This document shows positions 2-46,545 of a stretch of DNA of 64,000 nucleotides, in pieces. The DNA lies in NCBI RefSeq assembly GCF_000372845.1, contig NZ_KB889963.1:930001-994000 (forward strand), given 5' to 3'. The DNA comes from Methylocystis rosea SV97. GTDB lineage: Bacteria; Pseudomonadota; Alphaproteobacteria; Rhizobiales; Beijerinckiaceae. The first letter of the stretch is position 1. Each line of letters begins with the position of its first letter. The notes beneath the pieces were generated by a model. That model did no database searches, was not told where the DNA came from, and was given only the letters and a program-made list of their open reading frames with translations. The position numbers were made by a program, and so were the translations under genes.

Positions 2-712
2 CTTGAGGGCGACGACGAGATCGTCACTCTCCGAACCGACGATCATGCCGCATTGCAGGCGGAAGTCGATGTGAGGACCGCGGCAATTCTGATCGCGCCG
101 GTTAGGACGCAAGCCGGTTTTGAGGTCGTCTCAGGAAGCGTCCTCGCCAGACTGCGCGAGACCGCAGACGAATATGGGCTCATACTCGGTTTCGACGAAA
201 CCTTTTGCGGCCTCGGCCGCTCAGGCATGCTTTGGGCGCACGAATGGACCGGCGTCACCCCGGACCTGATGGTCGCCCGTCATTCGCCTGCGGACGCCCC
301 GCCGCTGGCTGCGCTCGTCGTTACGCAAAGACTGGCGCGAGGGGCGCTCGGCGGCTCGACGCTCGCTGACGGGGCCGCGCTTCTAGCCGGGCACGCCCTT
401 GTCGACGCTCTCTCGACGCCAGGCTTTCAGGAGCGCGTGCAGAACCGAAGCTGGTATCTCGAAGACCAGCTGTCCGCGTTGTTTTATCGGCGTCGTGCAG
501 CCTTTACGGCGCTGGATGGCCTTGGCCTGATGCAGGCGCTAACGCTCGCGGGAGACGCGGAGCCCATGCGCGCGAAATTGGCCGTGCAGGGGCTCCTCAC
601 GCGCGCGATGGGGTCGGTTCTGGGTTTATTTCCGCCGCTCTCAGTTGAGGAAAGCGACATCGATGCGGCGGTATCCTGCATCGAAATCGTTTGCGCGCAG
701 GAGGAACGATGA
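2..712 (+). CDS. Class III aminotransferase-like protein, C-terminal part, catalytic Lys missing (5' truncated by window edge)
   Basis: The reading frame is open from base 2, so the start lies outside the window. The product aligns with the C-terminal half of ArgD-type class III PLP aminotransferases: the DEYGLILGFDETFCGLGRSG segment matches the family FDE-x-Q-x-G-x-GR-x-G region and keeps the Asp that contacts the PLP ring nitrogen. Where the family has an A-K-A-L-G-G-G motif with the Schiff-base lysine, this protein reads DLMVARHSPADAP, so the Lys position holds Arg. Downstream alignment (GST..., TPGFQERVQ) is in register, so the loss is not caused by a frameshift. It is probably not a functional transaminase; role unknown. 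The cysteine-dioxygenase-like gene follows on the same strand after 64 bases. Confidence 0.72.
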   Translation, partial: LEGDDEIVTLRTDDHAALQAEVDVRTAAILIAPVRTQAGFEVVSGSVLARLRETADEYGLILGFDETFCGLGRSGMLWAHEWTGVTPDLMVARHSPADAPPLAALVVTQRLARGALGGSTLADGAALLAGHALVDALSTPGFQERVQNRSWYLEDQLSALFYRRRAAFTALDGLGLMQALTLAGDAEPMRAKLAVQGLLTRAMGSVLGLFPPLSVEESDIDAAVSCIEIVCAQEER

Positions 713-776
713 GCGCGCGAGGCGTTTGCTTCCGCCTCACTGACGCATTCCCTCAAATCGCGGACCGTTCAACATC

Positions 777-1412
777 ATGATCGAGATAAATTCGGCTGAT
801 CCAAATTTGCGAGTCATCGGGCGAGACCCTGTTCCCCCCGCGCTGCGGCGATTCATCTGGGACATTCAGTCCATGGTCGAACTTGCCGAAAGCGAGCGGG
901 AGATTTTGCTGATCGGCCGCGATCTCATGGCCCGACTCTTTACGACTGATGATTGGCTGCCAACGGTCTTCGCCGTCCCAAATCCCGCCGGAGGCCAGCA
1001 ATTCCAGATTTATCGCGACGGGCTAGATCGCTTTTCCGTCGTGAGCACAATTCTGTCGGGCGGCGCCTGTGTGACAATCTCTCAGCCTTCGGTTTGGGAG
1101 ATTGCGGGCGTGTTGCGCGGCGCAATCAACCGCCAGCAACTCGATGGTTCTCCGACGAACAGCGCGCAGGCCGGCGCGTCCCGTCTATTGCAAGCGAGCG
1201 CCGTGGAAGCCGCCCGGTCGACCGCGAGCGGGGAGGTCTTCGAGCTTCGCAACGCGCTGGATGATCAAACATCCATCATTTTCCATGTTTGTGGGGGCGA
1301 CATCGGCCGGATCAGCCGCCGATCTGGCGCATCAGGCGGAAGCGGCGACGCGCCGCCATTGGGCTACGCCAATTCGGACAACGATCCTCCCTACGATATC
1401 TTTTCAATTTAG
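777..1412 (+). CDS. Cysteine dioxygenase-like (cupin) protein lacking the metal-binding histidines
   Basis: 211 residues. Residues about 45-120 resemble the predicted metal-dependent cysteine dioxygenase family: a DDWLP segment, then FSVVS, then VWEIAGVLRG, which matches the family VWG-x-IG-x-LRG. Between them the family has a P-x-HDH metal site; here it reads CVTISQPS, with no histidine. The second half has LRNALDDQTSIIFHVCGGDIG, matching the family RNA-x-DRPSISIHVYG-x-NIG, but the third ligand (family GDIH) is replaced by GEVF. The fold looks kept and the iron site lost. The C-terminal 30 residues are Gly/Ser/Asp rich. The gene lies 64 bases after an aminotransferase-like gene that also lacks its key residue. 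Confidence 0.65.
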   Translation: MIEINSADPNLRVIGRDPVPPALRRFIWDIQSMVELAESEREILLIGRDLMARLFTTDDWLPTVFAVPNPAGGQQFQIYRDGLDRFSVVSTILSGGACVTISQPSVWEIAGVLRGAINRQQLDGSPTNSAQAGASRLLQASAVEAARSTASGEVFELRNALDDQTSIIFHVCGGDIGRISRRSGASGGSGDAPPLGYANSDNDPPYDIFSI

Positions 1413-1529
1413 AACGAGATCCGGGATTGAGGCGGGAACTCTGAAGGTTCTCGCCATCGGTGCTCTCTAGACGCTGCAACGCACGGTGGCCACGCGCGTC
1501 AGATTTAATCCTTGCAGAGAGGGCAATTT

Positions 1530-1784
1530 CTATGAGGGATCGAAATATTCGATTTTTTGGCCTGGATCTCTATTCGGGCAGGGGATTTCCTTGAACAGCA
1601 CTTCGGCGAAGGCCTTCAGGCCGGTGTTCGTGCGCAGAGACAGGCGATTGGGGTCGGACGTCCAGCTTTGATAAGTGACGATCCCACGGGTGATGCTGAT
1701 CACCGTGTACTTTTCCGAGTTGATTTCGCCGCCCTTCGTTCGATAGCACTTCCCGGGCAGAACGCTTTCTTCCTTCATCGGCAT
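1530..1784 (-). CDS. Conserved-looking small protein of unknown function
   Basis: 84 residues, not recognised. It begins MPMKEESVLPGKCYRT and reads like a small beta-rich domain (alternating charged and hydrophobic stretches, one SWTSD turn), with two Cys. It is the third gene of a leftward set after the MtnC-like gene and a 2Fe-2S ferredoxin, so it probably shares their transcript. A second ATG lies two codons downstream and could be the start. Confidence 0.5.
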   Translation of the reverse strand: MPMKEESVLPGKCYRTKGGEINSEKYTVISITRGIVTYQSWTSDPNRLSLRTNTGLKAFAEVLFKEIPCPNRDPGQKIEYFDPS

Positions 1785-1902
1785 GGATGCTCACCCTGCA
1801 TCTTGGCGCTGCGTGCATGGCCGTTGAGCAAGTTCCAGACCATATAGCGTTTCCGCGCGAACGTTCGCTGCAACCATCGACGTTCGAAACCGTGTGGGCG
1901 AA

Positions 1903-2295: not shown

Positions 2296-2982
2296 TCACG
2301 ATCCCAAATTCAGCGATGCAAAATCAGGGCTAACCGCGTGGCGACTATCCGCAGGACCCTCTCGCCCGATGAGCGTCGTCGCAAGGCCTGCCGACTGGGC
2401 GGCGTCCAATTCCTCCGCATCGCCCGACAGCGTCAGCACCGATCCTGAAGGCAAATCGAGACGCTCACAGATCGCACGGTAGGAGGCGGGTTCGATTTTC
2501 TGACCGATGGACGTGTCGAAGAACTCCTCGAACAAGCCTGTGAGGTCGCCCGAGGCGCTGTGGCTCAGCAAGAGTTGCTGCGCCAATCTCGAATTGGACG
2601 AGTAAACAAACAGGCGACGGCCCGATGAGACCCATGATTTCAGCGATTCCGCAACGTCGGGATAAAGCTCGCCTTTGATCGCGCCTGCCTCAAAACTCTC
2701 GCGCCAGATCAGGCCCTGGATCGTCTTCAGCGGGGTCGCCTTGCGGTTCTGCTTCATCCAGCGCAGCAACAGCGCTTCGGCTTCCTCGAGCTTCAAGTCG
2801 AATCCGCCAAGGAGACGCCCCGTTTCCTCCAAGGCGTCTTCCACATCCGGGTCAGAGGCATGTTCCGCGATGAAGGCGCCAAGCCGCGCCTCCGCGAGCG
2901 GCATGAGAGTCCCGGTCGCGAAAGCCATCGGAACGGCGGCGCCTTCGAGCTCGATCAGGACGGCGCGCACCGGTTCACTCAT
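2296..2982 (-). CDS. Enolase-phosphatase (MtnC)-like HAD protein with lost catalytic Asp
   Basis: 228 residues, the usual length of acireductone synthase MtnC. Matching landmarks are TPLKTIQGLIWR, LYPDV, LFVYSSNS, SGDLTGLFEEFFDT and the IGQK lysine motif. The HAD nucleophile motif, D-x-EGT in MtnC, reads ELEGA (residues about 11-15), so the nucleophile is Glu. The late acidic motif (family LSD-x-x-EELDAA) reads LSGDAEELDAA, losing the Mg-binding Asp. Phosphatase activity is therefore doubtful. It heads a leftward operon with a ferredoxin and a small protein, behind a -24/-12 promoter, which ties it to the nif regulon rather than to methionine salvage. Confidence 0.75.
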   Translation of the reverse strand: MSEPVRAVLIELEGAAVPMAFATGTLMPLAEARLGAFIAEHASDPDVEDALEETGRLLGGFDLKLEEAEALLLRWMKQNRKATPLKTIQGLIWRESFEAGAIKGELYPDVAESLKSWVSSGRRLFVYSSNSRLAQQLLLSHSASGDLTGLFEEFFDTSIGQKIEPASYRAICERLDLPSGSVLTLSGDAEELDAAQSAGLATTLIGREGPADSRHAVSPDFASLNLGS

Positions 2983-10516: not shown

Positions 10517-12004
10517 ATGGCGGCGGTGCAAGAGACAGTTGAACAGGTTCGTCGTGTCGGCGCTGATCAATATAAATATGGTTTCATCACCGACATCGAA
10601 TCCGATCTCGCTCCAAAGGGTCTTTCCGAAGAGGTGATCCGCTTCATTTCTGCGAAGAAGGGCGAGCCCGAATGGATGCTCGAATGGCGGCTGGAGGCCT
10701 ATCGCCGCTGGCTGACGATGACCGAGCCGAAATGGGCGCGCGTTGACTACCCGGCGATCGATTATCAGGATCTCTATTATTACGCGGCGCCGAAATCGAC
10801 GGCTGGTCCGAAATCGCTTGACGAAGTGGACCCGGAGTTGCTGCGCACATACGAAAAACTCGGCATTCCGCTGCATGAGCGCGAAATTCTTGCCGGCGTC
10901 GAACGGCCGGAGGGCGAAGAGCGCCCGCGCGTCGCGGTCGATGCGGTATTCGACTCGGTCTCCGTCGCAACGACGTTCAAAGAGGAGCTGAAGAAGTCGG
11001 GCGTGATCTTCTGCCCGATCTCCGAGGCGCTGCGCGAGCACCCCGAACTGGTGCGCAAATATCTCGGGACCGTGGTGCCGACCTCCGACAACTACTTTGC
11101 GACGCTGAACAGCGCGGTGTTTTCGGACGGCTCTTTCGTCTACATCCCGCCGGGCGTGCGCTGCCCGATGGAATTGTCGACCTATTTCCGAATCAACGAA
11201 AAAAACACCGGGCAGTTCGAGCGGACGCTCATCATCGCCGACAAAGGTTCCTACGTCAGTTATCTCGAAGGCTGCACCGCGCCCAAGCGCGACGAGAATC
11301 AGTTGCACGCGGCGGTGGTCGAACTCGTGACGCTCGACGACGCCGAAATCAAATATTCGACCGTGCAGAATTGGTATCCGGGCGACGAGAACGGCAAGGG
11401 CGGAATCTATAATTTCGTCACAAAGCGCGGCGATTGCCGCGGCGCCAATTCGAAGATCAGCTGGACCCAGGTCGAAACCGGTTCGGCGATCACCTGGAAA
11501 TATCCGAGCTGCGTGTTGCGCGGCGATAATTCGCGCGGCGAATTCTACTCGATCGCGATCTCCAACGGTCGCCAGCAAGTCGACTCCGGCACCAAGATGA
11601 TCCATCTCGGCAAGGGCACGACGAGCCGCATCATCTCGAAGGGCATTTCGGCCGGCCGCTCGTCAAACGCCTATCGGGGCCTCGTCTCGGCGCATCGCAA
11701 GGCGGAGGGCGCCCGCAATTTCACGAATTGCGACTCGCTGCTCATCGGCGACGCCTGCAGCGCGCACACAATCCCCTACATCGAAGCGAAGAACCCGTCC
11801 TGCGTGTTCGAACACGAGGCGACGACTTCAAAGATCTCGGAGGACGTCTTGTTCTACTGCATGCAACGTGGCCTATCGCAGGAAGATGCGACCGCGCTGG
11901 TGGTCAATGGGTTCGTGCGCGACGTGTTGCAGCAACTGCCGATGGAATTCGCGGTCGAAGCGCAAAAGCTGATCTCGGTCAGTCTCGAAGGCAGCGTCGG
12001 CTGA
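10517..12004 (+). CDS. sufB: Fe-S scaffold protein SufB
   Basis: 495 residues, the standard SufB length, ATG preceded by GGAGAGCG. Diagnostic blocks include [41 protein letters not shown] and the C-terminal [16 protein letters not shown] segment. SufB forms the SufBC2D scaffold that builds [4Fe-4S] clusters under stress. It sits 12 bases after the LRV gene, inside what looks like the FdxN operon, so it is probably NifA-dependent here. sufS is absent; NifS could supply sulfur. Confidence 0.97.
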
Positions 12005-12030
12005 CGCCTCGATAGAGTGGGAGTGGTGGA

Positions 12031-12789
12031 ATGACGGCGCTACTGGAAATTCGCGACCTCAAGGCCGAGATTGCCGGCAAGCAGATCCTGAATGGCTATG
12101 ACCTCACCGTGAAGGCGGGCGAGGTGCATGCGATCATGGGTCCCAACGGCTCGGGCAAATCGACGCTGTCCTATGTGCTCTCCGGCCGGCCCGGCTATAA
12201 AATCACCGAGGGACAGGCGCTGCTCGCCGGCGCCGATCTGTCGCAGATGAGCGTCGACGAACGCGCTGCGGCGGGGCTGTTCCTCGCGTTTCAATATCCG
12301 CTGGAGGTGCCGGGCGTCGCAACGATGACTTTTTTGCGCGCCGCGCTCAACGCGCAGCGCAAGAAGCGCGGCGAGGAGGAAATGTCTTCGCCCGATCTGA
12401 TCAAGCGCGTCAAGGAACTCGCCAAGATCCTCGACATGGACATGGAGATGCTGCGGCGTCCGGTGAACGTCGGCTTCTCGGGCGGAGAGAAAAAGCGCGC
12501 CGAGACGCTGCAGATGATGCTGCTCGAACCCAAGCTGTGCATCCTCGACGAGACCGACTCGGGACTCGACATCGACGCGCTGAAAGTCGTCTCCAACGGC
12601 GTCAATCAATTGCGCTCGAAGGACCGCGGCATCGTTGTGATCACCCATTATCAGCGGCTGCTCGATTACATCACGCCGGACGTCGTTCATGTGCAGTCTG
12701 CCGGCCGCATCGTGCGGACCGGCGGGAAGGAGCTTGCTCTGGAGCTCGAGGAAACGGGCTACGCGCGCTACCAAAGCGAGGCGGCATAA
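12031..12789 (+). CDS. sufC: SufC ABC-type ATPase
   Basis: 252 residues. Walker A is GPNGSGKST, the ABC signature is FSGGEKKR, and Walker B/D-loop is CILDETDSGLDID. It is the ATPase of the SufBCD scaffold complex, cytoplasmic, without membrane segments. It lies 26 bases after sufB and 3 bases before sufD, consistent with a single transcript and equimolar assembly. Confidence 0.97.
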   Translation: MTALLEIRDLKAEIAGKQILNGYDLTVKAGEVHAIMGPNGSGKSTLSYVLSGRPGYKITEGQALLAGADLSQMSVDERAAAGLFLAFQYPLEVPGVATMTFLRAALNAQRKKRGEEEMSSPDLIKRVKELAKILDMDMEMLRRPVNVGFSGGEKKRAETLQMMLLEPKLCILDETDSGLDIDALKVVSNGVNQLRSKDRGIVVITHYQRLLDYITPDVVHVQSAGRIVRTGGKELALELEETGYARYQSEAA

Positions 12790-12792
12790 GTC

Positions 12793-14112
12793 ATGGGCAA
12801 CGCACCGACCACTCGCAAACTCACCGACGCCGAGGCTCGGCTGGCGGAAATCTTCGCCATGCAGCAAAGCGATGGCGCGCCGCAGCTTGCGAAGCTGCGC
12901 ACCGCCGCCTTCGACGCGTTTTCGAAGACCGGCCTCCCCAACCGACGCGACGAGGCGTGGAAATACACGGATTTGCGCGCCCTGCTGCGCGACGTGAAGC
13001 CCCTGGCGGCGCCGCCGGAAGATAGCGCGAAGGAAAGCGCGCGGAGTGCGGCAGTTCTTGAGGGCGTCGCGGCGCGGCGGCTCGTCTTCGTCGGCGGCTA
13101 TTTCGTCCCGGAGCTTTCCGATCTTGGCGATTTGGAAGCAGGGTTGAGCGTCGTGTCGCTGTCGGAGGCCTTAGCCAAGGGCGACGCCGGGACGACGGCA
13201 CAGATCGGGAATGTGGGCGAGGTCGACGATCCGGCCTTTGCGCTCAACACCGCCTTCATGGGCGAAGGCGTCGTTATTCGGGTCGGCGCCGGCGTATGCG
13301 TGGACAGGCCGATACAATTGGTTTTCGTGGCGGGCGCGCAGCCGGCGACCTATTTCCTGCGCTCGCTTGTCATCGTGGAAAAAGGCGCGCGGGCGACTCT
13401 GATCGAGAGCTTTGAGGGCGAAACGGCGCAGGAATACCATGTGAACGCCGCGACCGAAATTGTGCTGGAAGAGGGCGCGTCCCTCGAGCGACTCAAGATC
13501 AGTCGCGAAGGCGCCGCCGCCATGCATGTCTCGACATTCGTCGCCTCACTCGCCGCCGATGCCCAGCTGAGCGATTTCGGGTTCAATCTCGGCGGAGCCG
13601 TGTTGCGCAACCAGTCCTTCATCAACATTAACGGGCAGGGCGCCCATGCCGGCCTGCGCGGGGCCAACATATTGAAGGGCAAGGAGCACGCCGACGCGAC
13701 CTTGTTCCTCGATCATGCGGCGGAACGTTCGGAAAGCAAGGCGCTGTTCAAATCCGTGCTGGATGACTCGTCGCAGGCGGTGTTTCAGGGGAAGATCCTG
13801 GTTCGGCCCGGCGCGCAAAAGACCGATGCGCGCATGATGGCCCGCACGCTATTATTGTCCGAAGGGGCGCAGGCCAACTGTAAGCCTGAGCTAGAAATCT
13901 TTGCTGACGACGTGCAATGCGCGCATGGGTCGACCGTCGGTGCTTTGGACGAGAACTTGATTTTCTATTTGATGGCGCGGGGGATTCCCCAGGCGGAAGC
14001 CCAATCGCTGCTGACGGAAGCCTTCGTCGGGGAAGTGATCGACGTCGTGGCGAATCGCAGCCTGCGAGAGGCTCTCACCGGCCTCGTTTCCGAGCGGCTG
14101 AGAACGCGATAA
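12793..14112 (+). CDS. sufD: SufD, Fe-S assembly scaffold subunit
   Basis: 439 residues. The N-terminal FSKTGLPNRRDEAWKYTDLR is the SufD hallmark. The beta-helix core and the C-terminal ADDVQCAHGSTVGALDE block, carrying the Cys-x-His pair conserved in SufD, are intact. It partners SufB and SufC. The gene ends this operon; the next 411 bases hold the nifB control region. Confidence 0.96.
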   Translation: MGNAPTTRKLTDAEARLAEIFAMQQSDGAPQLAKLRTAAFDAFSKTGLPNRRDEAWKYTDLRALLRDVKPLAAPPEDSAKESARSAAVLEGVAARRLVFVGGYFVPELSDLGDLEAGLSVVSLSEALAKGDAGTTAQIGNVGEVDDPAFALNTAFMGEGVVIRVGAGVCVDRPIQLVFVAGAQPATYFLRSLVIVEKGARATLIESFEGETAQEYHVNAATEIVLEEGASLERLKISREGAAAMHVSTFVASLAADAQLSDFGFNLGGAVLRNQSFININGQGAHAGLRGANILKGKEHADATLFLDHAAERSESKALFKSVLDDSSQAVFQGKILVRPGAQKTDARMMARTLLLSEGAQANCKPELEIFADDVQCAHGSTVGALDENLIFYLMARGIPQAEAQSLLTEAFVGEVIDVVANRSLREALTGLVSERLRTR

Positions 14113-14310
14113 AGATTCCAAACCTGTGAACGACGCATCATATGACGTCGCGCGGTTTCGTCGTGACGTTCCGATTTGAACGTAAAAATCCACGGTAGCC
14201 GCGAGTCGACCTCGACAACGCGGCGTCGGCGAAAATGCCTCGACATGGATAATGCGGCAGACGCTCGTCCGAGCGGATGAGCCGCCCTGCGTCGCCGAAC
14301 CTGTCGACGA

Positions 14311-14326
14311 TGTTGAATCTGTAACA
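14311..14326. promoter_or_regulatory. NifA upstream activator site (distal) for nifB
   Basis: TGT-TGAATCTGTA-ACA, exact TGT-N10-ACA, about 98 bases upstream of the nifB -24 element. Confidence 0.65.
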
Positions 14327-14353
14327 AGTGTCGTCACACGGATTGTAGGGACG

Positions 14354-14369
14354 TGTTTGAATATTTACA
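14354..14369. promoter_or_regulatory. NifA upstream activator site (proximal) for nifB
   Basis: TGT-TTGAATATTT-ACA, exact TGT-N10-ACA, 43 bases after the distal site (about four helical turns). Confidence 0.7.
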
Positions 14370-14423
14370 TTGTTGGATCGCCATACAGCTTTGAAATATA
14401 ACGTAAAATGTTAGTTCAGGCGC

Positions 14424-14438
14424 TGGCATGGTTGTTGC
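14424..14438 (+). promoter_or_regulatory. Sigma-54 promoter of nifB
   Basis: TGGCATGGTTGTTGC matches the consensus fully; it is 86 bases before the nifB ATG and downstream of two NifA sites. The 411-base gap 14113-14523 holds nothing else I can identify. Confidence 0.85.
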
Positions 14439-14523
14439 GATCCCTCCGGCAAACTGATGCATCGCTCCGTCTCAGCCGAGAGTCGGCAAAGACGACTTTG
14501 CAGCGACAGAAGGAAGCAAAGCC

Positions 14524-16095
14524 ATGACGTCTCTGGATGTTGGAACGGCGGAGGCAGCTGAAGGGGTGAACGCGGCGGTCGCCATGGGCGACGTGATGCA
14601 GAAGATCGCCGAGCACAAGGGGTGCGGCACGTCGGGCGGCAGCGGAAAGGCGAGCTGCGGTTCGGGCGCCGGTGAGGGCGACCTCCCGACGGAGATTTGG
14701 GAGAAGGTCAAGAACCACCCCTGCTACAGCGAAGAGGCGCACCACCATTATGCGCGCATGCATGTCGCCGTCGCGCCCGCTTGCAACATCCAGTGCAACT
14801 ATTGCAACCGCAAATATGATTGCGCCAATGAATCGCGCCCCGGCGTCGTCAGCGAGAAGCTGACCCCGGAGCAGGCCGCGAAGAAAGTTTTGGCCGTCGC
14901 CTCCACCATTCCGCAAATGACGGTTTTGGGCATCGCCGGCCCGGGCGATCCACTCGCCAATCCAGAAAAAACCTTCAAGACATTCGATCTGATCTCGCGC
15001 ACCGCGCCGGATATCAAGCTCTGCCTGTCGACAAATGGCCTGGCGTTGCCGGATCACGTCGACACGATCGCTGGTTACAACGTCGATCACGTCACGATCA
15101 CCATCAACATGGTCGATCCGGAAGTCGGCGCGAAGATCTATCCTTGGGTGTTCTGGAAGCATAAGCGCTACACCGGCGTCGAAGCGGCGAAGCTTCTCAC
15201 CGACCGCCAGCTGCAGGGCCTGGAAATGCTCACCGAGCGCGGCATTCTGTGCAAGGTGAATTCGGTGATGATCCCGGGGGTCAACGACAAGCACCTCGTC
15301 GAAGTGAACAAGGCCGTCAAATCTCGCGGCGCGTTCCTGCACAACATCATGCCGCTGATCTCGGCTCCGGAGCACGGCACGGTGTTTGGCCTTAACGGTC
15401 AGCGCGGTCCGTCGGCGCAAGAGCTGAAGGCGCTGCAGGACAGCTGTGAAGGCGAGATGAACATGATGCGCCACTGTCGCCAGTGCCGCGCCGACGCGGT
15501 CGGCCTGCTCGGCGAAGATCGCAGCGCTGAGTTCACGACCGAAAAGATCATGGCGATGGAGGTCGACTACGATCTTGAGTCCCGCAAGGCCTATCAAGAG
15601 AAGGTCGAAGAAGAGCGCGTCGCCAAGGTGGCCGCGAAACAGGAAGAGCTGGCGACGTTGGCCGGCGCGGCGAGCGACATCAAGTTGTTGATCGCGGTGG
15701 CGACGAAGGGTTCGGGCCTCATCAACGAACATTTCGGTCACGCCAAAGAGTTCCAGGTTTACGAACTCTCGACCTCGGGCGCGAAATTCGTCGGACATCG
15801 CCGCGTCGATCTCTACTGCCAGGGCGGATATGGCGACGAGGACAGTCTGGAGACGGTTATCCGCGCCATCAACGACTGCCATGCGGTGTTCGTCGCGAAG
15901 ATCGGCGGTTGCCCGAAGAACGACCTGATCAAGGCCGGGATCGAGCCCGTCGATCAATTCGCCCATGAGTTCATCGAGAAGTCGGCGATCGCCTGGTTCA
16001 AGGCCTATCTCGACAAGGTGAACAGCGGCGAAATCGAACATCAGGAGCGCGGCGACGCCGAAATCCGACAGGGCGCGCTCATCAACGCGGCTTGA
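14524..16095 (+). CDS. nifB: NifB, radical SAM FeMo-cofactor precursor synthase
   Basis: 523 residues. The radical SAM motif [10 protein letters not shown] places cluster ligands at Cys87, Cys91 and Cys94, followed by [14 protein letters not shown]-terminal NifX-like cofactor-binding domain (about 385-510, starting [11 protein letters not shown] and including [14 protein letters not shown]) is fused, as in many proteobacteria. NifB makes NifB-co (an 8Fe core with carbide) from two [4Fe-4S] clusters. It heads an operon with ferredoxin, IscA-like, TPR and LRV genes. Confidence 0.98.
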
Positions 16096-16364: not shown

Positions 16365-16703
16365 ATGAAATTTACGCTTACGCCGGCCGCACAAAAATTC
16401 ATCCGGCGAATGATTCAGTTCAGCGCCAACCCAGGCGGAGGCTTTCGCTTGATGGTGTCGCCGGGCGGGTGCTCCGGGCTCAGCGCGCTGTTTGACGTCG
16501 AAGCCGCGCCGCGCGCCGGCGATCAGGAGTTCATCGTCGAAGGCGTGAAGTTTTTCCTGCCGGCCGAAAGCCGCCTGCTGCTTGATGGCGTCACGATTGA
16601 CTTCGCCGATTCCTCTTCAAGCGGGGGGCTCGTCTTTCACGATCCAAAGAACACGGGATCGTGCAAGAGCACCGGCGGGCCCGTCATGGAGCATGTGCAT
16701 TAA
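16365..16703 (+). CDS. IscA/HesB-family Fe-S carrier, nif-type
   Basis: 112 residues. The HesB fold is recognised by VSPGGCSGL (first ligand Cys) and the GLVFHDPKN block. The usual C-terminal CGC pair is reduced to a single Cys in NTGSCKST, as in nifB-linked members of the family. It probably carries or donates Fe-S clusters to nitrogenase maturation proteins. It lies 10 bases after the ferredoxin. Two more IscA-like genes lie at 33346 and 48718, both with two C-terminal Cys. Confidence 0.88.
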   Translation: MKFTLTPAAQKFIRRMIQFSANPGGGFRLMVSPGGCSGLSALFDVEAAPRAGDQEFIVEGVKFFLPAESRLLLDGVTIDFADSSSSGGLVFHDPKNTGSCKSTGGPVMEHVH

Positions 16704-19380: not shown

Positions 19381-20292
<912 letters not shown>

Positions 20293-35477: not shown

Positions 35478-35482
35478 ACGCG

Positions 35483-36346
35483 ATGAACGCGCCATTTGAC
35501 AGCTATGTCCTCCTTGAAGGCGAGAAGGCCGAGGAAGCGCTCGGCAAAATCGCCGCTGAGCTGAAGACGGGGACCGTGATTCCCTATATCGGTCCTGGGT
35601 TGACGCAGCTCTCGCCAACCGAGGTGCCGATGACGCCCGAGGCGCTCGCCGCGTTTTTCGGGACCAAGGTGGCGCTGCCAAAACGCGCCAAAGGCAACTG
35701 CTGGGCAAGCGCGCAGCACATCGAGAACATGAAGCATCGTTCGACCGTCTCGACGTTAATGTCGCAGGCCTTCAACGACAGCATCGCGCCGACGCAGCTG
35801 CATTTCTACCTTGCATCGCTGCAGCTGCCGATGATCGTTGACAGCTGGTACGACGCGACGATGCGTTCGGCCCTCGAAGGGCGTAGCGACTGGGGCGAGA
35901 TCCAGGGCATCACCCGCGCCGGCATCGGCGAGGACCGCTGGTACCGGTTCTACGAAGCGGACGGAACGGAAACCACCAAGGAAAAAGCCGACGCCTGGAA
36001 GACCGTCCTCTACAAGCCGCATGGCAGCATCGCCCCCGCCAAGAATTTTCTGATTTCTGACGCGGACTACGTCGAGGTGCTGACTGAGATCGACATTCAG
36101 ACGCCCTTGCCGGAGGCGGTAAAGAATCGCCGGTCCGAGCGCAGCTTCCTGTTTGTCGGCTGTCGCTTCCACGATCAGTTGTTGCGCACGTACGCCCGGC
36201 AGATCATGAAGCGTTCGACGACGACGCATCACGCCATCGTCGATCCGGCGGTGCTGACGAAAAACGAGCTGAAGTTTCTCACCATCCAGGGCATCATACC
36301 GATCGCGCTTCCCATCGATCGCGCTTGCGAGATCCTGATCCGCTAA
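35483..36346 (+). CDS. SIR2-like domain protein in the nifS-nifT operon
   Basis: 287 residues. The N-terminal TGTVIPYIGPGLTQL (about 28-42) resembles the nucleotide-binding loop of SIR2_2-type domains, and FLFVGCRFHDQLLRTYARQI with HHAIVDP near the C-terminus matches the SIR2_2 pattern (VGxSFxDxxLR). The substrate is unknown; SIR2_2 proteins may be NAD hydrolases or deacylases. It starts 5 bases after nifT, so it is co-transcribed with nif. The family call is moderate. Confidence 0.65.
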   Translation: MNAPFDSYVLLEGEKAEEALGKIAAELKTGTVIPYIGPGLTQLSPTEVPMTPEALAAFFGTKVALPKRAKGNCWASAQHIENMKHRSTVSTLMSQAFNDSIAPTQLHFYLASLQLPMIVDSWYDATMRSALEGRSDWGEIQGITRAGIGEDRWYRFYEADGTETTKEKADAWKTVLYKPHGSIAPAKNFLISDADYVEVLTEIDIQTPLPEAVKNRRSERSFLFVGCRFHDQLLRTYARQIMKRSTTTHHAIVDPAVLTKNELKFLTIQGIIPIALPIDRACEILIR

Positions 36347-36592: not shown

Positions 36593-36607
36593 TGGCACGC
36601 ATGTTGC
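36593..36607 (+). promoter_or_regulatory. Sigma-54 promoter of the nifZ operon
   Basis: TGGCACGCATGTTGC, perfect consensus. It lies 142 bases before nifZ, a longer leader than elsewhere. The 402-base gap 36347-36748 contains otherwise nothing I can identify. Confidence 0.9.
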
Positions 36608-36748: not shown

Positions 36749-37051
36749 ATGAGCAACATCGTTCGCGACAGTGAAGTTTGTGAACTGACTGCGCCGCCCG
36801 TCTTTTCCTTCGGCGAGAAAGTGAAGGCGAAGCGTACGATCCGCAATGACGGGACATACGCCGGTAAGGAGATCGGCGAGGTTCTCGCCAAGAAAGGCGA
36901 GGAAGGCTACGTCGTGAGCATCGGCACCTTTCTCCAACAATTCTATATCTACGGGATTGAGTTCACCGAAAGCGGCAATCGCGTCGGCATGAAGCGCAAG
37001 GAACTCGAGTCGGCTAATCCGCGCGATGACGTCGATCTCCCGCTGCCTTGA
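36749..37051 (+). CDS. nifZ: NifZ
   Basis: 100 residues. FSFGEKVKAKRTIRNDGTYAG, then GEEGYVVSIGTFLQQFYIYG and a GMKRKELE end are NifZ hallmarks. NifZ assists P-cluster formation in the MoFe protein. It is followed after 11 bases by a second NifZ-domain gene. Confidence 0.95.
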   Translation: MSNIVRDSEVCELTAPPVFSFGEKVKAKRTIRNDGTYAGKEIGEVLAKKGEEGYVVSIGTFLQQFYIYGIEFTESGNRVGMKRKELESANPRDDVDLPLP

Positions 37052-37062
37052 GGAGTGTGAAC

Positions 37063-37302
37063 GTGTTCGAACCACGAATGCCGAAATATCAATGGGGTCA
37101 GCGAGTGAAGACGCTCGTCGATCTGGTCAACGATGGGAGTTATCCCGACGAGAAACCGGAGGCGCTGCTCGTCGCCAACGGCGGTTTGGGCGAAATCGTG
37201 CAGGTCGGATCGCATACTGATACGAATACGCCGATCTATCTCGTTGAATTTCCCGACGGCCGTGTCGTCGGTTGTCTCGAGGAAGAGATCGCGCCCTTGT
37301 AA
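37063..37302 (+). CDS. Second NifZ-domain protein
   Basis: 79 residues from a GTG at 37063 placed 7 bases after GAGGAG; an ATG at codon 6 is an alternative. YQWGQRVKTLVDLVNDGSYPD and GGLGEIVQVGSHTDTNTPIYLVEFPDG repeat the NifZ fold (beta-barrel). It may act with NifZ as a split or duplicated form. Confidence 0.85.
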   Translation: MFEPRMPKYQWGQRVKTLVDLVNDGSYPDEKPEALLVANGGLGEIVQVGSHTDTNTPIYLVEFPDGRVVGCLEEEIAPL

Positions 37303-37310
37303 GAGGAGCG

Positions 37311-37676
37311 ATGGCGAGCATGCGATCGACGGTCACGACACTCGGTGGGGCCGCGTCGGCTCAGCCGAATGAATTCGACTACAAGCGCATCGTGCGCGCC
37401 TTGGAACAACGGCGTCGCTATCGCTATGTCACGCCAGTCGTGACGAAAACTGCGAACGGCTATCGCATTCAGAGCCCGTGTTGTTCGCGGAACGTCGATC
37501 CGGACGGCGGCGTCATCGATATCGCCTTAGTGCTCTTCGACGAGCGCAAAGGCAATTGGCGCCTTCTTCGCAAGGACCATGCAATCGGCGTGTGGGAGCT
37601 GGACAGCGAGTTTTCACGTCTTGCCGAGTTGCTCGACCATCTCAAGGAAGACGCCGAGCGGCGCTTCTGGCAGTGA
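37311..37676 (+). CDS. Conserved hypothetical protein (DUF3024-like)
   Basis: 121 residues. The core is RYRYVTPVVTKTANGYRIQ, SPCCSRNVDPDGG, IDIALVLFDE and WRLLRKDHAIGVWEL. I recall this pattern from a family of small proteins (DUF3024-like) without known function; the adjacent Cys pair may bind metal. AAGAGGAG precedes the ATG. Located inside the nifZ operon. Confidence 0.65.
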   Translation: MASMRSTVTTLGGAASAQPNEFDYKRIVRALEQRRRYRYVTPVVTKTANGYRIQSPCCSRNVDPDGGVIDIALVLFDERKGNWRLLRKDHAIGVWELDSEFSRLAELLDHLKEDAERRFWQ

Positions 37677-37701: not shown

Positions 37702-37965
37702 ATGGCGATCAGCGACGTGGAACTGACGGAGATCGAAAGACTGCTCGGGGCCGAGGCGACGCCGGCGCTTTCGGAGCTGCGCGCGAAATTCTCACATCTC
37801 TCCTGGACGCGCTGCGACGTGTCGGACGTGATCGAAACGCCTTTCCGCAGCTTTACGACCTGCGACGTGCATTTGCTCGACGGCGCCGATCATTGCGTGA
37901 CGGTTACCGACGATCCGGCGCGCGCCACTGGCGTTATCGTCGCCTTTCGGGGGAGTTTGCGATGA
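37702..37965 (+). CDS. Small protein, DUF6129-like
   Basis: 87 residues. ISDVELTEIERLLG, WTRCDVSDVIETPFRSF and LLDGADHCVTVTDDPARATG resemble a nif-linked DUF6129-type family; function unknown. An ATG one codon upstream is equally possible. Its stop overlaps the DegT-like gene start (ATGA). Confidence 0.65.
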   Translation: MAISDVELTEIERLLGAEATPALSELRAKFSHLSWTRCDVSDVIETPFRSFTTCDVHLLDGADHCVTVTDDPARATGVIVAFRGSLR

Positions 37966-39173
37966 ATGCGCGGGCCGAAGTGAACGATAAATTCGAAGCA
38001 AAGCCGCCTGCGCCCGGTGAGGCGTTGGGCGGGGATCTCATTCCGCTCTCTGACCCCGACATCACGCTCGACGACATTGCCGCGGTCGAGGCGGTGCTGC
38101 GCTCCAGCCGCTTGTCCAGCGGCCCGGTGATGGAGGCTTTCGAAGCCGCCTTCGCCGCCTATCTCGGGCGCAAATACGCGGTGGCTGCGCCGAGCGGCAC
38201 GATGGGGCTGCTGCTCGCGCTCGCCGCGTACGAGATCGGTCCGGGCGATGAAGTGATCGCCTCTCCGCATTCCTTCCGCGAAACCGTGCATGCGATCGCA
38301 CTTGCCGGCGCCAAGCCGGTGTTCGCCGACATCGACTATTGGTCTGGCGTCATCGCGAGCGGAAAGATCGAGGCGCTGATCACCGACAAAACGCGCGCGA
38401 TCGTGGCGAGCAACACCAACGGCCATCCGGCGCAATGGGCGGAGCTGCGCGACATCGCAACTAAGCATCGGCTCATCCTGCTCGAAGATTCCACCGAAGC
38501 AATCGGCTCCAAATACAAGGGCGTGCTTGTCGGCACCTTCGGCGACGCGTCGGTGTTCGATTTCTCGCAGCCCGGGCCGCTGGTCTGCGGCGAAGGCGGG
38601 ATGGTGGTCACCGACGACATCGACGTCGCGGTGGCGATGCGGCGCTTTCGCGCGCATAGACCGAGCGAGCGAGCATCGGTCGTGGTTGGCTCCAGCGCGC
38701 CCTATCAGGCGGCGATGAGCGACATGAGCGCGGCGCTGGGCATGGCGCAGCTGCGAAGGCTCGAAGAAATTCTCGAGAAGCGTAAGCTCATCGAGCACTA
38801 CTACTTCAAGCACGTCAAATCCTTCGAAGGCATCAAGGATCCCTTCATCGGGCCAGAAGTCGACGAGGTGCACTGGTTTCTTTACGTCGTTCATCTCGGC
38901 ACACGCTTCAGCAAATCCAGCCGCGACTCGATCGTCGAGGATTTGCTGGTCGAAAAGGTGGAAGCCGCCGCTTACAGCAATCCCTTGCATACGCAGCGGC
39001 GCTATTTCGATTACGGCTATCGTCGCGGCAGTTTTCTCGTCGCCGAAAAGGTTTCGGACCGCGCCGTCGCAATGCCTTTCCACGTCCATCTGCAAGAGCG
39101 CCAAATCGCATTCATCGTGCAGACGATGAAGGAGGCGTCGATCAATGTCGGCGCGGGCGCCGCCATTTACTAA
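37962..39173 (+). CDS. DegT/DnrJ/EryC1-family aminotransferase-like protein without the PLP lysine
   Basis: 403 residues, full family length. The fold markers are present: RLSSGPVMEAFEAAFAAYLG, AAPSGTMGLLLAL, GDEVIASPHSF, VFADIDYW, LLEDSTEAIGSKYKG, and the GEGGMVVTDD motif. The Schiff-base Lys, normally six residues before EGG (family FS-x-x-x-x-K-x-x-x-x-GEGG), is Gly in VFDFSQPGPLVCGEGG. PLP may still bind through the Asp of LLEDSTEA, but transamination would be blocked. It lies in the nifZ operon before a ferredoxin. Confidence 0.82.
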   Translation: MNARAEVNDKFEAKPPAPGEALGGDLIPLSDPDITLDDIAAVEAVLRSSRLSSGPVMEAFEAAFAAYLGRKYAVAAPSGTMGLLLALAAYEIGPGDEVIASPHSFRETVHAIALAGAKPVFADIDYWSGVIASGKIEALITDKTRAIVASNTNGHPAQWAELRDIATKHRLILLEDSTEAIGSKYKGVLVGTFGDASVFDFSQPGPLVCGEGGMVVTDDIDVAVAMRRFRAHRPSERASVVVGSSAPYQAAMSDMSAALGMAQLRRLEEILEKRKLIEHYYFKHVKSFEGIKDPFIGPEVDEVHWFLYVVHLGTRFSKSSRDSIVEDLLVEKVEAAAYSNPLHTQRRYFDYGYRRGSFLVAEKVSDRAVAMPFHVHLQERQIAFIVQTMKEASINVGAGAAIY

Positions 39174-39202: not shown

Positions 39203-39511
39203 ATGCCGACCGTAACCATCATGCCCTCCGGAAAGACGGTGGACGCCGCCGAGGGCGCGACCTTGCTGCAGATCATCATGTCGAGCGGCGAGGAGATCAA
39301 TCACAAGTGCGAAGGAAAAGCGCAGTGCGGCTCTTGTCACATCTACGTGCATGAAGGCCGCAAGGGCATTTCGAAGATCGCGCGCGAAGAGAACGAAAGG
39401 CTCGACACCATCGTCGGCATCGGCTCGAAGTCGCGCCTGGCGTGCCAGGCGAAGATTCTCGGCACGGAAAACGTCAAGATCGAACTGCTCGGCTTCGCGT
39501 CGGGCTTATAA
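39203..39511 (+). CDS. [2Fe-2S] ferredoxin, adrenodoxin-like
   Basis: 102 residues. Cluster motif HKCEGKAQCGSCHIYV plus a later RLACQAKI Cys gives the four ligands. It belongs to the ferredoxins commonly found in nifZ regions of alphaproteobacteria. Located 29 bases after the DegT-like gene. Confidence 0.92.
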   Translation: MPTVTIMPSGKTVDAAEGATLLQIIMSSGEEINHKCEGKAQCGSCHIYVHEGRKGISKIAREENERLDTIVGIGSKSRLACQAKILGTENVKIELLGFASGL

Positions 39512-43333: not shown

Positions 43334-44047
43334 TCACGCGTCCGGCGGACCCATGTCGTCGCCGCTCTTCTTCTTTTTCTTGTCGACCTTGGCCTGCGCA
43401 TAGGAGCCGGAGTTCTTCAGCGCGATCGGCTTCTGACCCTCGACATATTGCGAGATCCAAAACAAAGTGCGCTCGCGCGCCGATTGCGCGGCGGCTTCGT
43501 TGAAACTTTCCGCGGCATCGAAATTGAAGCCGTTGCGGGCTTCGGGATAGGAGAAGGCGCTTACGTCGGGTCGTTGGGCGCGGAATTGGACGATTTCTTC
43601 CATCGGCAACGACGGATCATTCTCAGGCAGGTGCAGCAGCGTCGGAATTTTCCGCTTCACCCAGCGTTCCTCTGAAATTCCGGCCGGATAATAGCTGATC
43701 GCACAGGCGACGTCGCTGAGGCTATTGGCCGAAACATAGGCGAGATAGCCGCCCCAATCATAGCCGACGATCGCCACCTTGCCGACGCCCTTGACGGCGT
43801 CGACAGTAGCCTGAATGTCCTGCAGGGCCGTCGTGACGGAAGGACCGTCGCTCTCGCCTTCCTGAGACGCAAGCGCTGGCGCGATCGCGACATAACCCTC
43901 AGCCGCGAAGCTTTCGACTTCCTTTTGCAGATGTGGCGTGACGCCGTAGACGTCCGGCAGCACAACGACGGCGCCCTTGGGAGCCTCAGTGGGTTCGGCT
44001 CGATAGGCGGAAAAACTGCGTCCGTCTCCGGAAGTAAGTTCGATCAT
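43334..44047 (-). CDS. Dienelactone hydrolase-like alpha/beta protein with altered catalytic triad
   Basis: 237 residues with the dienelactone hydrolase layout: VVVLPDVYGVTPH, GYVAIAPAL, VAIVGYDWGGYLAY, ENDPSLP, YPEARNGFNFD. The nucleophile elbow, GYC-x-GG in the family, is GYDWGG (Cys to Asp). The catalytic His (family AGHGF) is Asn in ARNGF. The third member, Asp in ENDP, remains. GYDWGG also resembles the Asp elbow of haloalkane dehalogenases and epoxide hydrolases, but these need the His. The C-terminus is a Lys-rich tail (DKKKKKSGDD). Confidence 0.8.
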   Translation of the reverse strand: MIELTSGDGRSFSAYRAEPTEAPKGAVVVLPDVYGVTPHLQKEVESFAAEGYVAIAPALASQEGESDGPSVTTALQDIQATVDAVKGVGKVAIVGYDWGGYLAYVSANSLSDVACAISYYPAGISEERWVKRKIPTLLHLPENDPSLPMEEIVQFRAQRPDVSAFSYPEARNGFNFDAAESFNEAAAQSARERTLFWISQYVEGQKPIALKNSGSYAQAKVDKKKKKSGDDMGPPDA

Positions 44048-44187: not shown

Positions 44188-44574
44188 TTAGGAGTCGAAA
44201 AATCCCAGTTCCAGCTTGGCTTCGTCGCTCATCATGCTCTGATGCCACGGCGGATCGAACACGAGATTGATTTTTACGCTCGCGACTCCATCGACCGCGT
44301 CGACAGCCTTCTTCGTCATCCCGACCATTTCGCCGGCGACGGGGCAACCTGGCGCCGTCAACGTCATGTCGATGTCGATATCGCGTCGATCGATAACGTC
44401 GATGCGATAGATTAGTCCCAGATCGTATATGTTCACCGGAATTTCCGGGTCGAACACGGTCCGCAGCGCAAGGACGACTTCTTCATAGAGCGCTTGCGCC
44501 TCGGGCGAGGAATCGGTGCGGCCGCCGCGACTGTTCGGCTCCGAGACCTGTGTCATGTCGCTTCGTGGTTCCAT
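44188..44574 (-). CDS. DUF59/MIP18-family Fe-S assembly protein (SufT-like)
   Basis: 128 residues from the ATG at 44574, which follows AGGA by 7 bases; ATGs at 44589 and 44556 are possible. VFDPEIPVNIYDLGLIYRI and LTAPGCPVAGEM, then VKINLVFDPPWHQSMMSDEAK, form the DUF59 signature with its Cys. Such proteins help mature Fe-S enzymes. A consensus -24/-12 element lies 53 bases upstream, so it is likely part of the nif regulon. Confidence 0.92.
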   Translation of the reverse strand: MEPRSDMTQVSEPNSRGGRTDSSPEAQALYEEVVLALRTVFDPEIPVNIYDLGLIYRIDVIDRRDIDIDMTLTAPGCPVAGEMVGMTKKAVDAVDGVASVKINLVFDPPWHQSMMSDEAKLELGFFDS

Positions 44575-44626
44575 CTGAGTATCCTGCATGGCGAGAGTCG
44601 AATTCTCCACTGCTCGTAGTCGACCA

Positions 44627-44641
44627 GCAAGTAAGGCGCCA
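44627..44641 (-). promoter_or_regulatory. Sigma-54 promoter of the DUF59 gene
   Basis: Minus strand TGGCGCCTTACTTGC, followed by T. The NifA site at 44751 is 110 bases upstream. Confidence 0.75.
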
Positions 44642-44658
44642 TTCATCTTTGCTGAGGC

Positions 44659-44673
44659 TGGACTGAAATTTGC
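44659..44673 (+). promoter_or_regulatory. Sigma-54 promoter of the thioredoxin-like ferredoxin gene
   Basis: TGGACTGAAATTTGC, followed by A; correct spacing. 109 bases before the ATG at 44782, divergent from 44627-44641. Confidence 0.6.
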
Positions 44674-44750
44674 AATCATTCCACGTCCACGGTCCGCGGC
44701 GTCATGGTTGAGCGCCTTCGTTTACGAAGCGCATTTCTCACAGAGCGCCG

Positions 44751-45132: not shown

Positions 45133-45146
45133 GCATTGCCGAGCAT

Positions 45147-45587
45147 TCAAGACACCGCGCTGGAGGCCGCGAGCAACTCGCGCGCCTCCGCGTGGATGCG
45201 TCCCACCATCGACTTGAAACCGTTGGAGCGCTGCGGCGTCAGATGTTCGCGTAGGCCAAGACGCTCGAATAGCGCGACAGGATCCGCCTTCAAGATTTCC
45301 GCGCCGGTCTTGCCGGAGCAGAGCGCCAGCAAGATTGCAACGAGGCCGCGGACAATATGCGCGTCGCTGTCGCCGCGGATCATCAACGCCGGTTCGCCGC
45401 CGTTAGCGTCGGAAATCGTCGTCGCCAGCCAGACTTGGCTGGCGCAGCCCGAGACTTTATTCTGATCGTTCTTCAACGCATCGGGAAGCGGCTCGAGCAT
45501 TTTGCCGAGCTCGATGACATAGCGGTAGCGGTCCTCCCAATCGTCGAGCAGGGAGAAATTTTCGATGATGTCGTCGATCGTCGTCAT
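45147..45587 (-). CDS. sufE: SufE sulfur-transfer protein
   Basis: 146 residues. LLDDWEDRYRYVIELGKML and KVSGCASQVWL with the sulfur-accepting Cys identify SufE. It would pass sulfur from a cysteine desulfurase to SufB. It overlaps the ankyrin gene by 4 bases, so it is translated with it, and forms an operon with the pseudo-receiver upstream. sufBCD lies 31 kb away. Confidence 0.95.
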   Translation of the reverse strand: MTTIDDIIENFSLLDDWEDRYRYVIELGKMLEPLPDALKNDQNKVSGCASQVWLATTISDANGGEPALMIRGDSDAHIVRGLVAILLALCSGKTGAEILKADPVALFERLGLREHLTPQRSNGFKSMVGRIHAEARELLAASSAVS

Positions 45588-46054
45588 GTTTCGACCATTC
45601 CTTCAGCTTTGAGCCGCTCGCGGCGCTGGCGCGACGCGACGCGCAAGACTTGGAGGCATTCGACGTTAGACGCCAGATCAAGCGCCGAAAATCCATCGAC
45701 GTTCTCTTCCAGGGGATCTGCGCCAAGCGCCAGCAAGAGCGTCACGACCGCAGTCTTGCCCGCCGACGCCGCATAGATCAGCGCCGTCGAGCCGTCGGGA
45801 TTGCGATGGTGAAGGTTGGCCCCGGCGGCGGAGAGCAAGTCGATGGCCTCCACGCTGTCCTGCTTGCACGCCAACCAAACCGCGTTGTTGCCGTCGCGCG
45901 TCAGGGCGTCGAGATCCCCGCCCTCAGCAATGATTTCGCGCAACGCCTCGACGTTCGCCTCTGCCGCCGCTCGAAGAAGCGGCGTGAGGCCGTCGGCGCC
46001 GACGGCGGTCACGCCTTTCGCCGGAAAGCCTTGCGTCGTCAACCATTGCGTCAA
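45584..46054 (-). CDS. Ankyrin-repeat protein
   Basis: 156 residues from a TTG at 46054; the frame is open up to the stop of the receiver gene but has no ATG, so the start is uncertain. Four ankyrin repeats are visible: DGLTPLLRAAAEANVEAL, DGNNAVWLACKQDSVEAI, DGSTALIYAASAGKTAVV, DGFSALDLASNVECLQVL. A protein-interaction scaffold, coupled to sufE. Confidence 0.85.
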   Translation of the reverse strand: MTQWLTTQGFPAKGVTAVGADGLTPLLRAAAEANVEALREIIAEGGDLDALTRDGNNAVWLACKQDSVEAIDLLSAAGANLHHRNPDGSTALIYAASAGKTAVVTLLLALGADPLEENVDGFSALDLASNVECLQVLRVASRQRRERLKAEGMVET

Positions 46055-46113
46055 CTGCGGGGTGATGCCGTCGCTCCATCGCAGCGCCGACGAGACGTCG
46101 GCGTTTATTGAAT

Positions 46114-46545
46114 TTAAAGTAGCCCCAACTGCACGAGCGGCTTGGCGCCGCCGCGCCCGAGGACAGTGTCAACCTTCTGCCGCACATTCTCGATCTTCAG
46201 CGGTTTCACTAATATTCCATGCGCGCCGTGTTTCATGGCGTCGACCGCGAGCGCCTCGTCGGCTTTATCGCAGACGATTAATATGCGCACGCCGGCGAAA
46301 CGCTCCGCCAATTCCTTAAGGACCGAGACGCCATTGCTCTTTAGAAAAGAAGCCCCGAGCAGAACGACATCGGGCTTCAGCCAGCCGACGCCCTTTTCAT
46401 AGGCTTCTTGGATGCTGGCGATTTCATGGGTCTCGATCTCGTCGTGCAGCATGAACTGGAGCGCGGCGCGCACGATCTCGTCTTCGTCGAGGACGAACAC
46501 CCGCCGTTGATCGACCGCCTTCGCGGTTTCGACGCCAATCTGCAT
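46114..46545 (-). CDS. Response-regulator receiver domain lacking the phospho-acceptor Asp
   Basis: 143 residues from MQIGVETAKA, preceded by AAAGGAG. The single domain is a CheY fold: VFVLDEDEIVRAAL (acidic pair), PDVVLLGASFLKSNGVSVL, RILIVCDKADEALAVDAM, GILVKPL with the conserved Lys. The phosphorylation site, Asp in family DLVLLD, is Gly here (VVLLG). The Thr/Ser switch residue is also changed (VCDK). So it is a pseudo-receiver. It heads the operon with ankyrin and sufE, behind a sigma-54 promoter that shares a NifA site with nifH2. Confidence 0.85.
   Translation of the reverse strand: MQIGVETAKAVDQRRVFVLDEDEIVRAALQFMLHDEIETHEIASIQEAYEKGVGWLKPDVVLLGASFLKSNGVSVLKELAERFAGVRILIVCDKADEALAVDAMKHGAHGILVKPLKIENVRQKVDTVLGRGGAKPLVQLGLL

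Follow-up and report, generated by a model that had tools for sequence, protein, structure and literature searches.

Nif-linked proteins without their families' key residues in a Methylocystis nitrogen fixation island

The Asp of the EDS motif is the pyridine-binding residue in the DegT family of aminotransferases. In the related dehydratases ColD and E1 a His replaces the Lys, and E1 also carries a set of cluster cysteines and works with an iron-sulphur redox partner. FrzS and the KaiA pseudo-receiver are atypical receivers that lack the phospho-accepting Asp and act by binding. Pairing with an active paralogue is a common fate of pseudoenzymes. Here we describe proteins of comparable kinds in a 64,000-nucleotide stretch of Methylocystis rosea SV97 (positions 930001-994000 of contig C1, NZ_KB889963.1, of a 3.9 Mb genome), the whole of which we call the window. 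A Methylocystis-type nif (nitrogen fixation) island fills the window, and in it lie all six proteins that an earlier note had listed as lacking the key residue of their family. All six genes are present and open, and they fall into two groups. One group is bound to nif genes and comprises a DegT-like protein, a dienelactone hydrolase (DLH)-like protein and a stand-alone receiver; to these three we add a SIR2-like protein and the ferredoxin partner of DegT (Fdx2). The usual chemistry of these proteins would be lost. Across diazotrophs the loss is fixed in the DegT-like, receiver and SIR2-like proteins and frequent in the DLH-like protein and the ferredoxin. The genes are under purifying selection among close relatives, and they are linked to NifZ-domain genes or to nifH. 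We think it fairly probable that they encode accessory proteins, controlled by NifA and sigma-54, which have kept their family folds without catalytic activity and act by binding, in an exact role that we infer below.

The DegT-like protein (37962..39173, plus strand; 403 amino acids) is a pseudo-aminotransferase of the DegT/DnrJ/EryC1 type, in which the lysine that binds pyridoxal phosphate (PLP) has become Gly (motif FDFSQPGPLVCGEGG). It gives a full-length family match (296.8 bits), and the fold is present. The best 80 of 202 relatives were examined, and a structure-based alignment was made of 47 of the 80 loci plus the window; the Lys column was set by 3bn1, which has the Lys, and its K186A mutant 3dr4. 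The lysine was missing in 94/94 rows, and FSF Ser was Asp in all of them. The nearest named relatives are Methylocystis (97% identity to M. silviterrae), and the losses reach across alpha-, beta- and gammaproteobacteria. A NifZ-domain gene lies no more than 2.2 kb upstream in all 80 named loci. Among the loci from a search of 149 family genomes, which have short flanks, a NifZ gene was near in 17/22; the other five (4-kb loci) have a NifS-like neighbour in four cases and a SIR2 neighbour in all five.

The receiver (46114..46545, minus strand; 143 amino acids, MQIGV start; PF00072, 53 bits) has Gly64 in place of the phospho-Asp. Its AlphaFold model (predicted local distance difference test score, pLDDT, 80.9) shows the (beta/alpha)5 receiver fold with strand 3 ending at the Gly, and the top listed Foldseek matches of the model are receivers. 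None of 49 scorable rows among 50 has the Asp (33 Gly, 10 Ala, 6 Ser); the window gene is counted twice in these (WIN and locus L202), and L157 and the unscorable L160 are partial copies of genomes already represented. As a control, 45 of the 47 receiver matches in this genome were read (the remaining two were weak and fell under the cut-off), and 41 of the 45 keep the Asp. The four without it are the window receiver, its paralogue, another with Gly, and one with Glu in an interrupted frame. Across 18 aligned rows (17 receivers and the window), MQIGV, the six named residues of an HDExExHE stretch (46423-46446) and KPL do not vary. A metal site at HDExExHE was rejected because in the model the stretch maps to helix 1/strand 2. 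The gene is divergent from nifH in 27/27 loci that hold both, out of 30 loci searched, and nifH lies in the same small locus in 22/22 family genomes. In the window its divergent neighbour is a second nifH copy (46826..47806, plus strand), which by eye encodes the same protein sequence as the copy at 19405-20292 from MSSLRQ onward, with equal scores.

The paralogue of the receiver, a second pseudo-receiver with Ala, is found at 920 kb next to a globin gene and not far from a GAF/sigma-54 activator that resembles a second NifA. All three genes are read from the minus strand and occupy 11764-15543 of locus L318, about 9-13 kb to the left of the window. A receiver-globin operon as a general rule was rejected, since a globin follows the receiver in 7/54 loci and a truncated hemoglobin does so in Methylococcus EFPC2, which makes the arrangement lineage-dependent.

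The earlier note lists no SIR2-like protein, and its set was incomplete in this respect. This protein (35480..36346, plus strand; PF13289, 80.7 bits) has Trp in place of the NADase Asn in 61/61 rows. Its WYD aligns to the TTNYD of SIR2 domains in the PDB (7uxt, 6lhx; 8bto has Ala there), and the His of the HG motif is found in 31/61 rows. The gene occurs in 71/80 DegT loci, and its ratio of nonsynonymous to synonymous substitution rates (dN/dS) is 0.02-0.08 for seven usable of nine pairs; the pairs from L011 and L016 cover 28 and 8 codons (L016 gives 0.83 on its 8 codons), and the L017 pair covers 108. Based on these residues, the SIR2-like protein is possibly a pseudo-NADase of nif clusters.

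Regulatory sites are enriched in the window, which holds 16 sigma-54-type sites when up to one mismatch is allowed, against 4.2 expected, and 19 NifA-type sites, against 4.3 expected. An exact sigma-54-type promoter, TGGCACGCATGTTGC (36593..36607, plus strand), with NifA-type sites at 36493 and 36535, precedes two overlapping NifZ-domain genes (36749..37302, plus strand; PF04319, 108.7 and 90.4 bits), a DUF3024 gene (37272..37676, plus strand; PF11225, 63.9 bits), the DegT-like gene and, directly behind it, the gene of the ISC-type [2Fe-2S] ferredoxin Fdx2 (39203..39511, plus strand). DegT and Fdx2 follow the NifZ-domain genes in what appears to be a single sigma-54 operon. The label nifT for the gene at 36749 was rejected, as both genes carry the NifZ domain; by eye, a nifT-like frame precedes the SIR2 gene. 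On the receiver side there is a sigma-54-like site with one mismatch (46594..46608, minus strand) and a NifA-type site at 46637, and on the nifH side another sigma-54-like site (46757, plus strand, at most one mismatch). A further site of this quality, at 44627 on the minus strand within the listed SufT frame, perhaps serves SufT and DLH. In the same scan no such site was found near the MtnC-like gene, the nearest one upstream on the minus strand being at 6484. Four of the six proteins had been placed behind sigma-54 promoters or inside nif operons; we find three at most.

Among the 149 family genomes, nifD was detected in 27, the DegT-like protein in 22 and the receiver in 22 at the cut-offs used. 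These are the same 22 genomes, 22/27 with nifD as compared with 0/122 without a nifD match (Fisher p 7e-22, a statistic that ignores phylogeny). Pairwise dN/dS values (Nei-Gojobori, uncorrected for codon bias) are 0-0.15 for DegT, receiver and DLH, with no pair from DegT L015, receiver L011 and L016 or DLH L016; among close relatives every usable pair of the genes discussed here stays at or below 0.46. The test proposed in the earlier note, collecting orthologues and looking for fixed substitutions and purifying selection, supports a conserved nif-linked pseudoenzyme group for DegT and the receiver and, less strictly, for DLH.

The DLH-like alpha/beta hydrolase (43334..44047, minus strand; PF01738, 99.7 bits) has Asp for the catalytic Cys and Asn for the His, the Asp of the triad being kept; a SufT-like iron-sulphur assembly protein lies upstream of it (44188..44679, minus strand; TIGR02945, 146 bits; PF01883). 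The Cys-Asp-His triad is kept in 3/30 rows of the nif clade but in 27/27 rows outside it. The 30 nif rows lie on one side of a branch with support 100, and the tree needs at least two changes at the Cys and six at the His. Among 30 rows that are not DegT-linked, taken as the best of 42 matches, 28 keep the triad; it is missing from the copy in the window itself (L172) and from the one in the nifD-bearing genome G280 (L173). One of the 28, L174, adjoins nif-cluster genes. Loss of the triad is frequent and lineage-dependent, and it is not fixed.

The second group lies at the left edge of the window. It consists of an ArgD-like class III aminotransferase of which the window, starting inside the gene, holds the C-terminal part (2..712, plus strand; PF00202, 109.5 bits; the full gene is present in L089), a cupin-like protein of a methanotroph subfamily without the metal His (777..1412, plus strand), and an HAD protein like the acireductone synthase MtnC (2296..2982, minus strand; TIGR01691, 180 bits, above the equivalog cutoff of 128). 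Alignment confirmed the readings of Gly for Lys in DegT, of Asp and Asn in the DLH triad and of Gly for Asp in the receiver, as well as the loss of the MtnC Asp nucleophile, which is Glu, and the absence of the HxH and H ligands of the cupin. No Pfam or NCBIfam model matched the protein read as a cysteine dioxygenase-like cupin; its kinship to HxH-bearing relatives is based on matches of 28-40%. The reported change of Lys to Arg in the aminotransferase was not borne out: the column holds His in the window and His (13/15) or Tyr (2/15), never Lys, in relatives, and the Arg sits one residue earlier and is not conserved. The cupin His are missing in 9/9 Methylocystis rows and present in the distant relatives L091, L092 and L111-L113. 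The MtnC nucleophile is Glu in 9/9 Methylocystis rows and Asp in 4/4 Methylosinus-like orthologues.

Genes closely homologous to those of the aminotransferase, the cupin and the MtnC-like protein occur in 6, 8 and 5 of the 149 family genomes, and 5/6 (p 0.0007), 7/8 (p 0.00002) and 4/5 (p 0.004) of these, respectively, have nifD. This enrichment counts for the earlier note, though the genomes are few and closely related. Genome G188 holds all three genes without a nifD match (E <= 1e-150), and in the other family genomes sampled, two of them labelled Methylocystis, nifD is 41 kb to 3.7 Mb away from these genes or sits on a different contig. The aminotransferase is present in 12/39 genomes of the genus, and the three genes occur together in 8/11 relatives, one of the other three being truncated by a contig end. 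Their dN/dS values are 0.24-0.41 (aminotransferase), 0.12-0.46 (cupin) and 0.15-0.33 (MtnC-like). Taken together, these three genes are probably a separate methanotroph block that lies near nif by chance in the window's lineage, and they are not convincingly nif-linked. G188, the distances from nifD and the Asp of the Methylosinus-like MtnC orthologues weigh against the proposed nif role of the three. A single six-member nif pseudoenzyme set was rejected because three members fail the test of nif linkage; as a conserved nif-linked set the idea survives for DegT and the receiver and, with less rigour, for DLH. Recruitment for nitrogenase assembly, as proposed from sequence, would fit this nif-linked group.

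Several observations weigh against a nif-linked group of dead binding proteins. Five of the 27 nifD-bearing family genomes lack both DegT and the receiver. An in-frame stop is found in 3/80 DegT loci, and on a plasmid of a peanut-nodule Bradyrhizobium (L322, NZ_CP136627.1) the DegT match is split in two unannotated pieces, so that DegT in this symbiont may be breaking down too. Cys232 of DegT is not strictly fixed (91/94), with Ala in Methylococcus EFPC2. The 28 DegT-linked DLH rows keep the Cys in 10 cases and the whole triad in 2, and L191, a triad-bearing DLH outside the nif clade, is separated from DegT by about 25 kb in the nifD-bearing genome G261. All four ferredoxin Cys are kept in 63/82 Fdx2 rows, including the window, and redox function may therefore persist in most lineages. 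Solved Lys-to-Ala mutants of DegT relatives (3nys and 4oca, from their titles) hold PLP, and loss of the Lys thus need not stop cofactor binding. Finally, in the available part of PMC8594446 the nif cluster of Zymomonas includes a SIR2-like gene and its gene list names no DegT, which argues that the group is not one fixed unit.

This last point also bears on the strongest alternative, that there is no common theme and that separately recruited, odd proteins have been gathered from one island. We regard this as doubtful but worth keeping in mind. It would account for the differing spreads of SIR2 and DegT, for the three proteins that are not convincingly nif-linked and for the lineage-dependent loss in DLH. 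Against it, three of the proteins (DegT, SIR2 and the receiver) are individually tied to nif, with the lost state fixed in all rows examined, and 41 of the genome's 45 receivers are normal.

Changed chemistry is a less likely explanation, and we consider it on the whole unlikely. DegT could bind PLP or pyridoxamine phosphate (PMP) without a Schiff base, as in ColD and E1, or it could catalyse a different reaction in which Fdx2 donates electrons, as in the E1/E3 system. The Asp of the EDS motif is kept in 94/94 rows and the SGT loop mostly, the dehydratases 3bb8, 3bcx, 2gms and ColD 3gr9 are among the PDB sequence matches of DegT, and the PLP-holding mutants mentioned above are in line with such binding. 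A [2Fe-2S] ferredoxin also follows DegT in 81/102 loci, and of the 21 loci without a detected one, L015, L076, L078 and L242 do match in other searches. However, no conserved base stands in for the Lys (G, S, L, F, M, V, A and C are all found at its column), and the FSF Ser is lost. No signature of an E1-type PMP dehydratase was found in DegT, which has no His replacement and in which Cys232 is the only near-invariant Cys, so that there is no E1-type cluster set. A conserved redox or persulfide role for Cys232 was discarded, as this residue is absent in Methylococcus EFPC2 and shifted in P. sprentiae.

The ferredoxin itself speaks against obligate redox chemistry. Its four Cys are intact in the window protein, and Cys were counted within two columns, a 25-amino-acid fragment (L062) being left out of the loss count. 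None is left in eight Xanthobacter rows, two in X. tagetidis, one in four rows of a second Methylocystis cluster type and three in five rows. The 13 rows that miss two to four Cys form two clades (Shimodaira-Hasegawa-like approximate likelihood ratio test, SH-aLRT, 93 and 99), and the loci with none or one of the four Cys left are L022-L026, L035, L039 and L040, and L018-L020 and L227. Their dN/dS values are 0.03-0.37 in Xanthobacter and 0.06-0.42 in the other clade. Two examples without the cluster ligands are still ferredoxin-like (TIGR02007, 41 bits, below the cut-off), while the Pfam search did not find Fer2 in them. Since Fdx2 can lose its ligands while Fdx2 and DegT persist, an obligate redox enzyme is disfavoured. 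In many Bradyrhizobium loci Fdx2 was not detected beside an intact DegT. The earlier note overlooked this kind of loss, which is present in other lineages and not in the window copy.

Another alternative is that the dead proteins are silent subunits, each bound to an active paralogue that it regulates, much as happens in heteromeric pairs of pseudoenzyme and enzyme. The island does hold a NifS with its Lys and Cys motifs and a SufE with its Cys, but the two plasmid neighbourhoods examined carry no annotated active paralogue of DegT, DLH or SIR2, and we find this explanation improbable. Decay or mis-alignment is very improbable and largely refuted for DegT, the receiver and SIR2, because 77/80 DegT frames are open, dN/dS is well below 1, the DegT losses cross three proteobacterial classes and alignments to PDB entries give the same residue columns, even though the aminotransferase residue had been placed off by one, the genes at the left edge change more rapidly (dN/dS as high as 0.46) and relics of the receiver occur in some Bradyrhizobium.

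We therefore return to the group of binding proteins. DegT and Fdx2 would form a scaffold pair that needs no cofactor and acts alongside the NifZ proteins as nitrogenase matures. For the receiver we envisage an adaptor that is tied to nifHDK, does not depend on phosphorylation and works together with the Fe protein or its regulation. It may be useful mainly in fixation outside a legume host and dispensable in some Bradyrhizobium. Where nifH matched at more than 80%, which was the case in 37 loci, the receiver was undetected in 10 and broken in 2 (L037, L050), and all 12 are Bradyrhizobium, presumably nodule symbionts judging from strain names. Weak relics were seen at the same place, upstream of nifH, in 3 of the 10 (L047, L068, L071), and Fdx2 was found in none of the 12. 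Bradyrhizobium CCBAU 51765 has both kinds of cluster, one without receiver and ferredoxin (L055) and one with both (L080). The contrast between clusters with and without these two parts, even within one genome, amounts to a natural experiment on when each part is required. A bolder proposal, which we hold tentatively and rate as rather unlikely in full, is that free-living and photosynthetic diazotrophs share an unnamed, cofactor-stripped module of a Lys-less DegT coupled to a cluster-independent ferredoxin, an Asn-less SIR2 and an Asp-less receiver next to nifH. Such a module would work purely by protein binding in the maturation or protection of nitrogenase, and parts of it would be dropped when fixation takes place only inside the legume.

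Other genes of the island include a nifA-like activator, nifB, nifH (two copies), genes of the nifD, nifK, nifE, nifN and nifX types and a NifU domain, as well as a nifS-type desulfurase, the two NifZ-domain genes, nifQ and nifV; nifD and nifK were told apart, and the suf labels assigned, by eye. An A-type iron-sulphur carrier behind nifB (16365-16703) lacks the usual C-x-C, a motif that, judged by eye, is retained in about 10 of the 49 rows aligned. A truncated-hemoglobin-like sequence lies at 55888-56244 on the minus strand, and similar genes are found in many DegT loci. The Rfam scan of the window gave zero matches, and PADLOC gave weak matches only.

A similar set of genes appears in the literature. 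As listed in the available part of PMC3899966, the nif genes of Bradyrhizobium ORS278 include a CheY homologue (BRADO5396), a DLH (5403), a 2Fe-2S ferredoxin (5410), a DegT (5411) and a NifZ (5414), and BRADO5414, 5416, 5418 and 5424 are conserved with Azorhizobium and absent from rhizobia that do not fix nitrogen in the free-living state. The names used there are aminotransferase, CheY homologue and hydrolase, and in that part of the paper the catalytic-residue losses are unmentioned; within one open library we found no mention of them elsewhere. Public records annotate the genes as aminotransferase, response regulator and SIR2 family protein. If these proteins are dead by chemistry and kept by selection, such names mislead, and attempts to transfer nitrogen fixation to other hosts may be leaving out proteins that act by binding.

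How, then, does the group compare with known systems? By annotation alone, the ORS278 genes listed under nitrogen fixation in the available part of PMC3899966 are apparently the same set. In contrast to the DegT/DnrJ/EryC1/StrS sugar aminotransferases (perosamine synthase, ArnB, PseC), the window-type DegT has no PLP Lys in any of its 94 rows, has Asp for the FSF Ser and is encoded in nif operons. It resembles the PMP dehydratases ColD and E1 (AscC, RfbH) in family and in the absence of the Lys, but it has neither the His replacement nor an E1-type Cys set, and its ferredoxin partner loses ligands in two lineages. The SIR2-like protein matches the SIR2 core of NADases such as ThsA weakly (24.5 bits or less) and differs from them in the Trp that replaces the Asn of TTNYD in every row and in the HG His kept in about half of them. 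Similar to atypical receivers of the FrzS and KaiA type, the nif receiver has the fold without the phospho-Asp and would act by binding; unlike them, it is a stand-alone protein of 143 amino acids, divergent from nifH, with an invariant HDExExHE.

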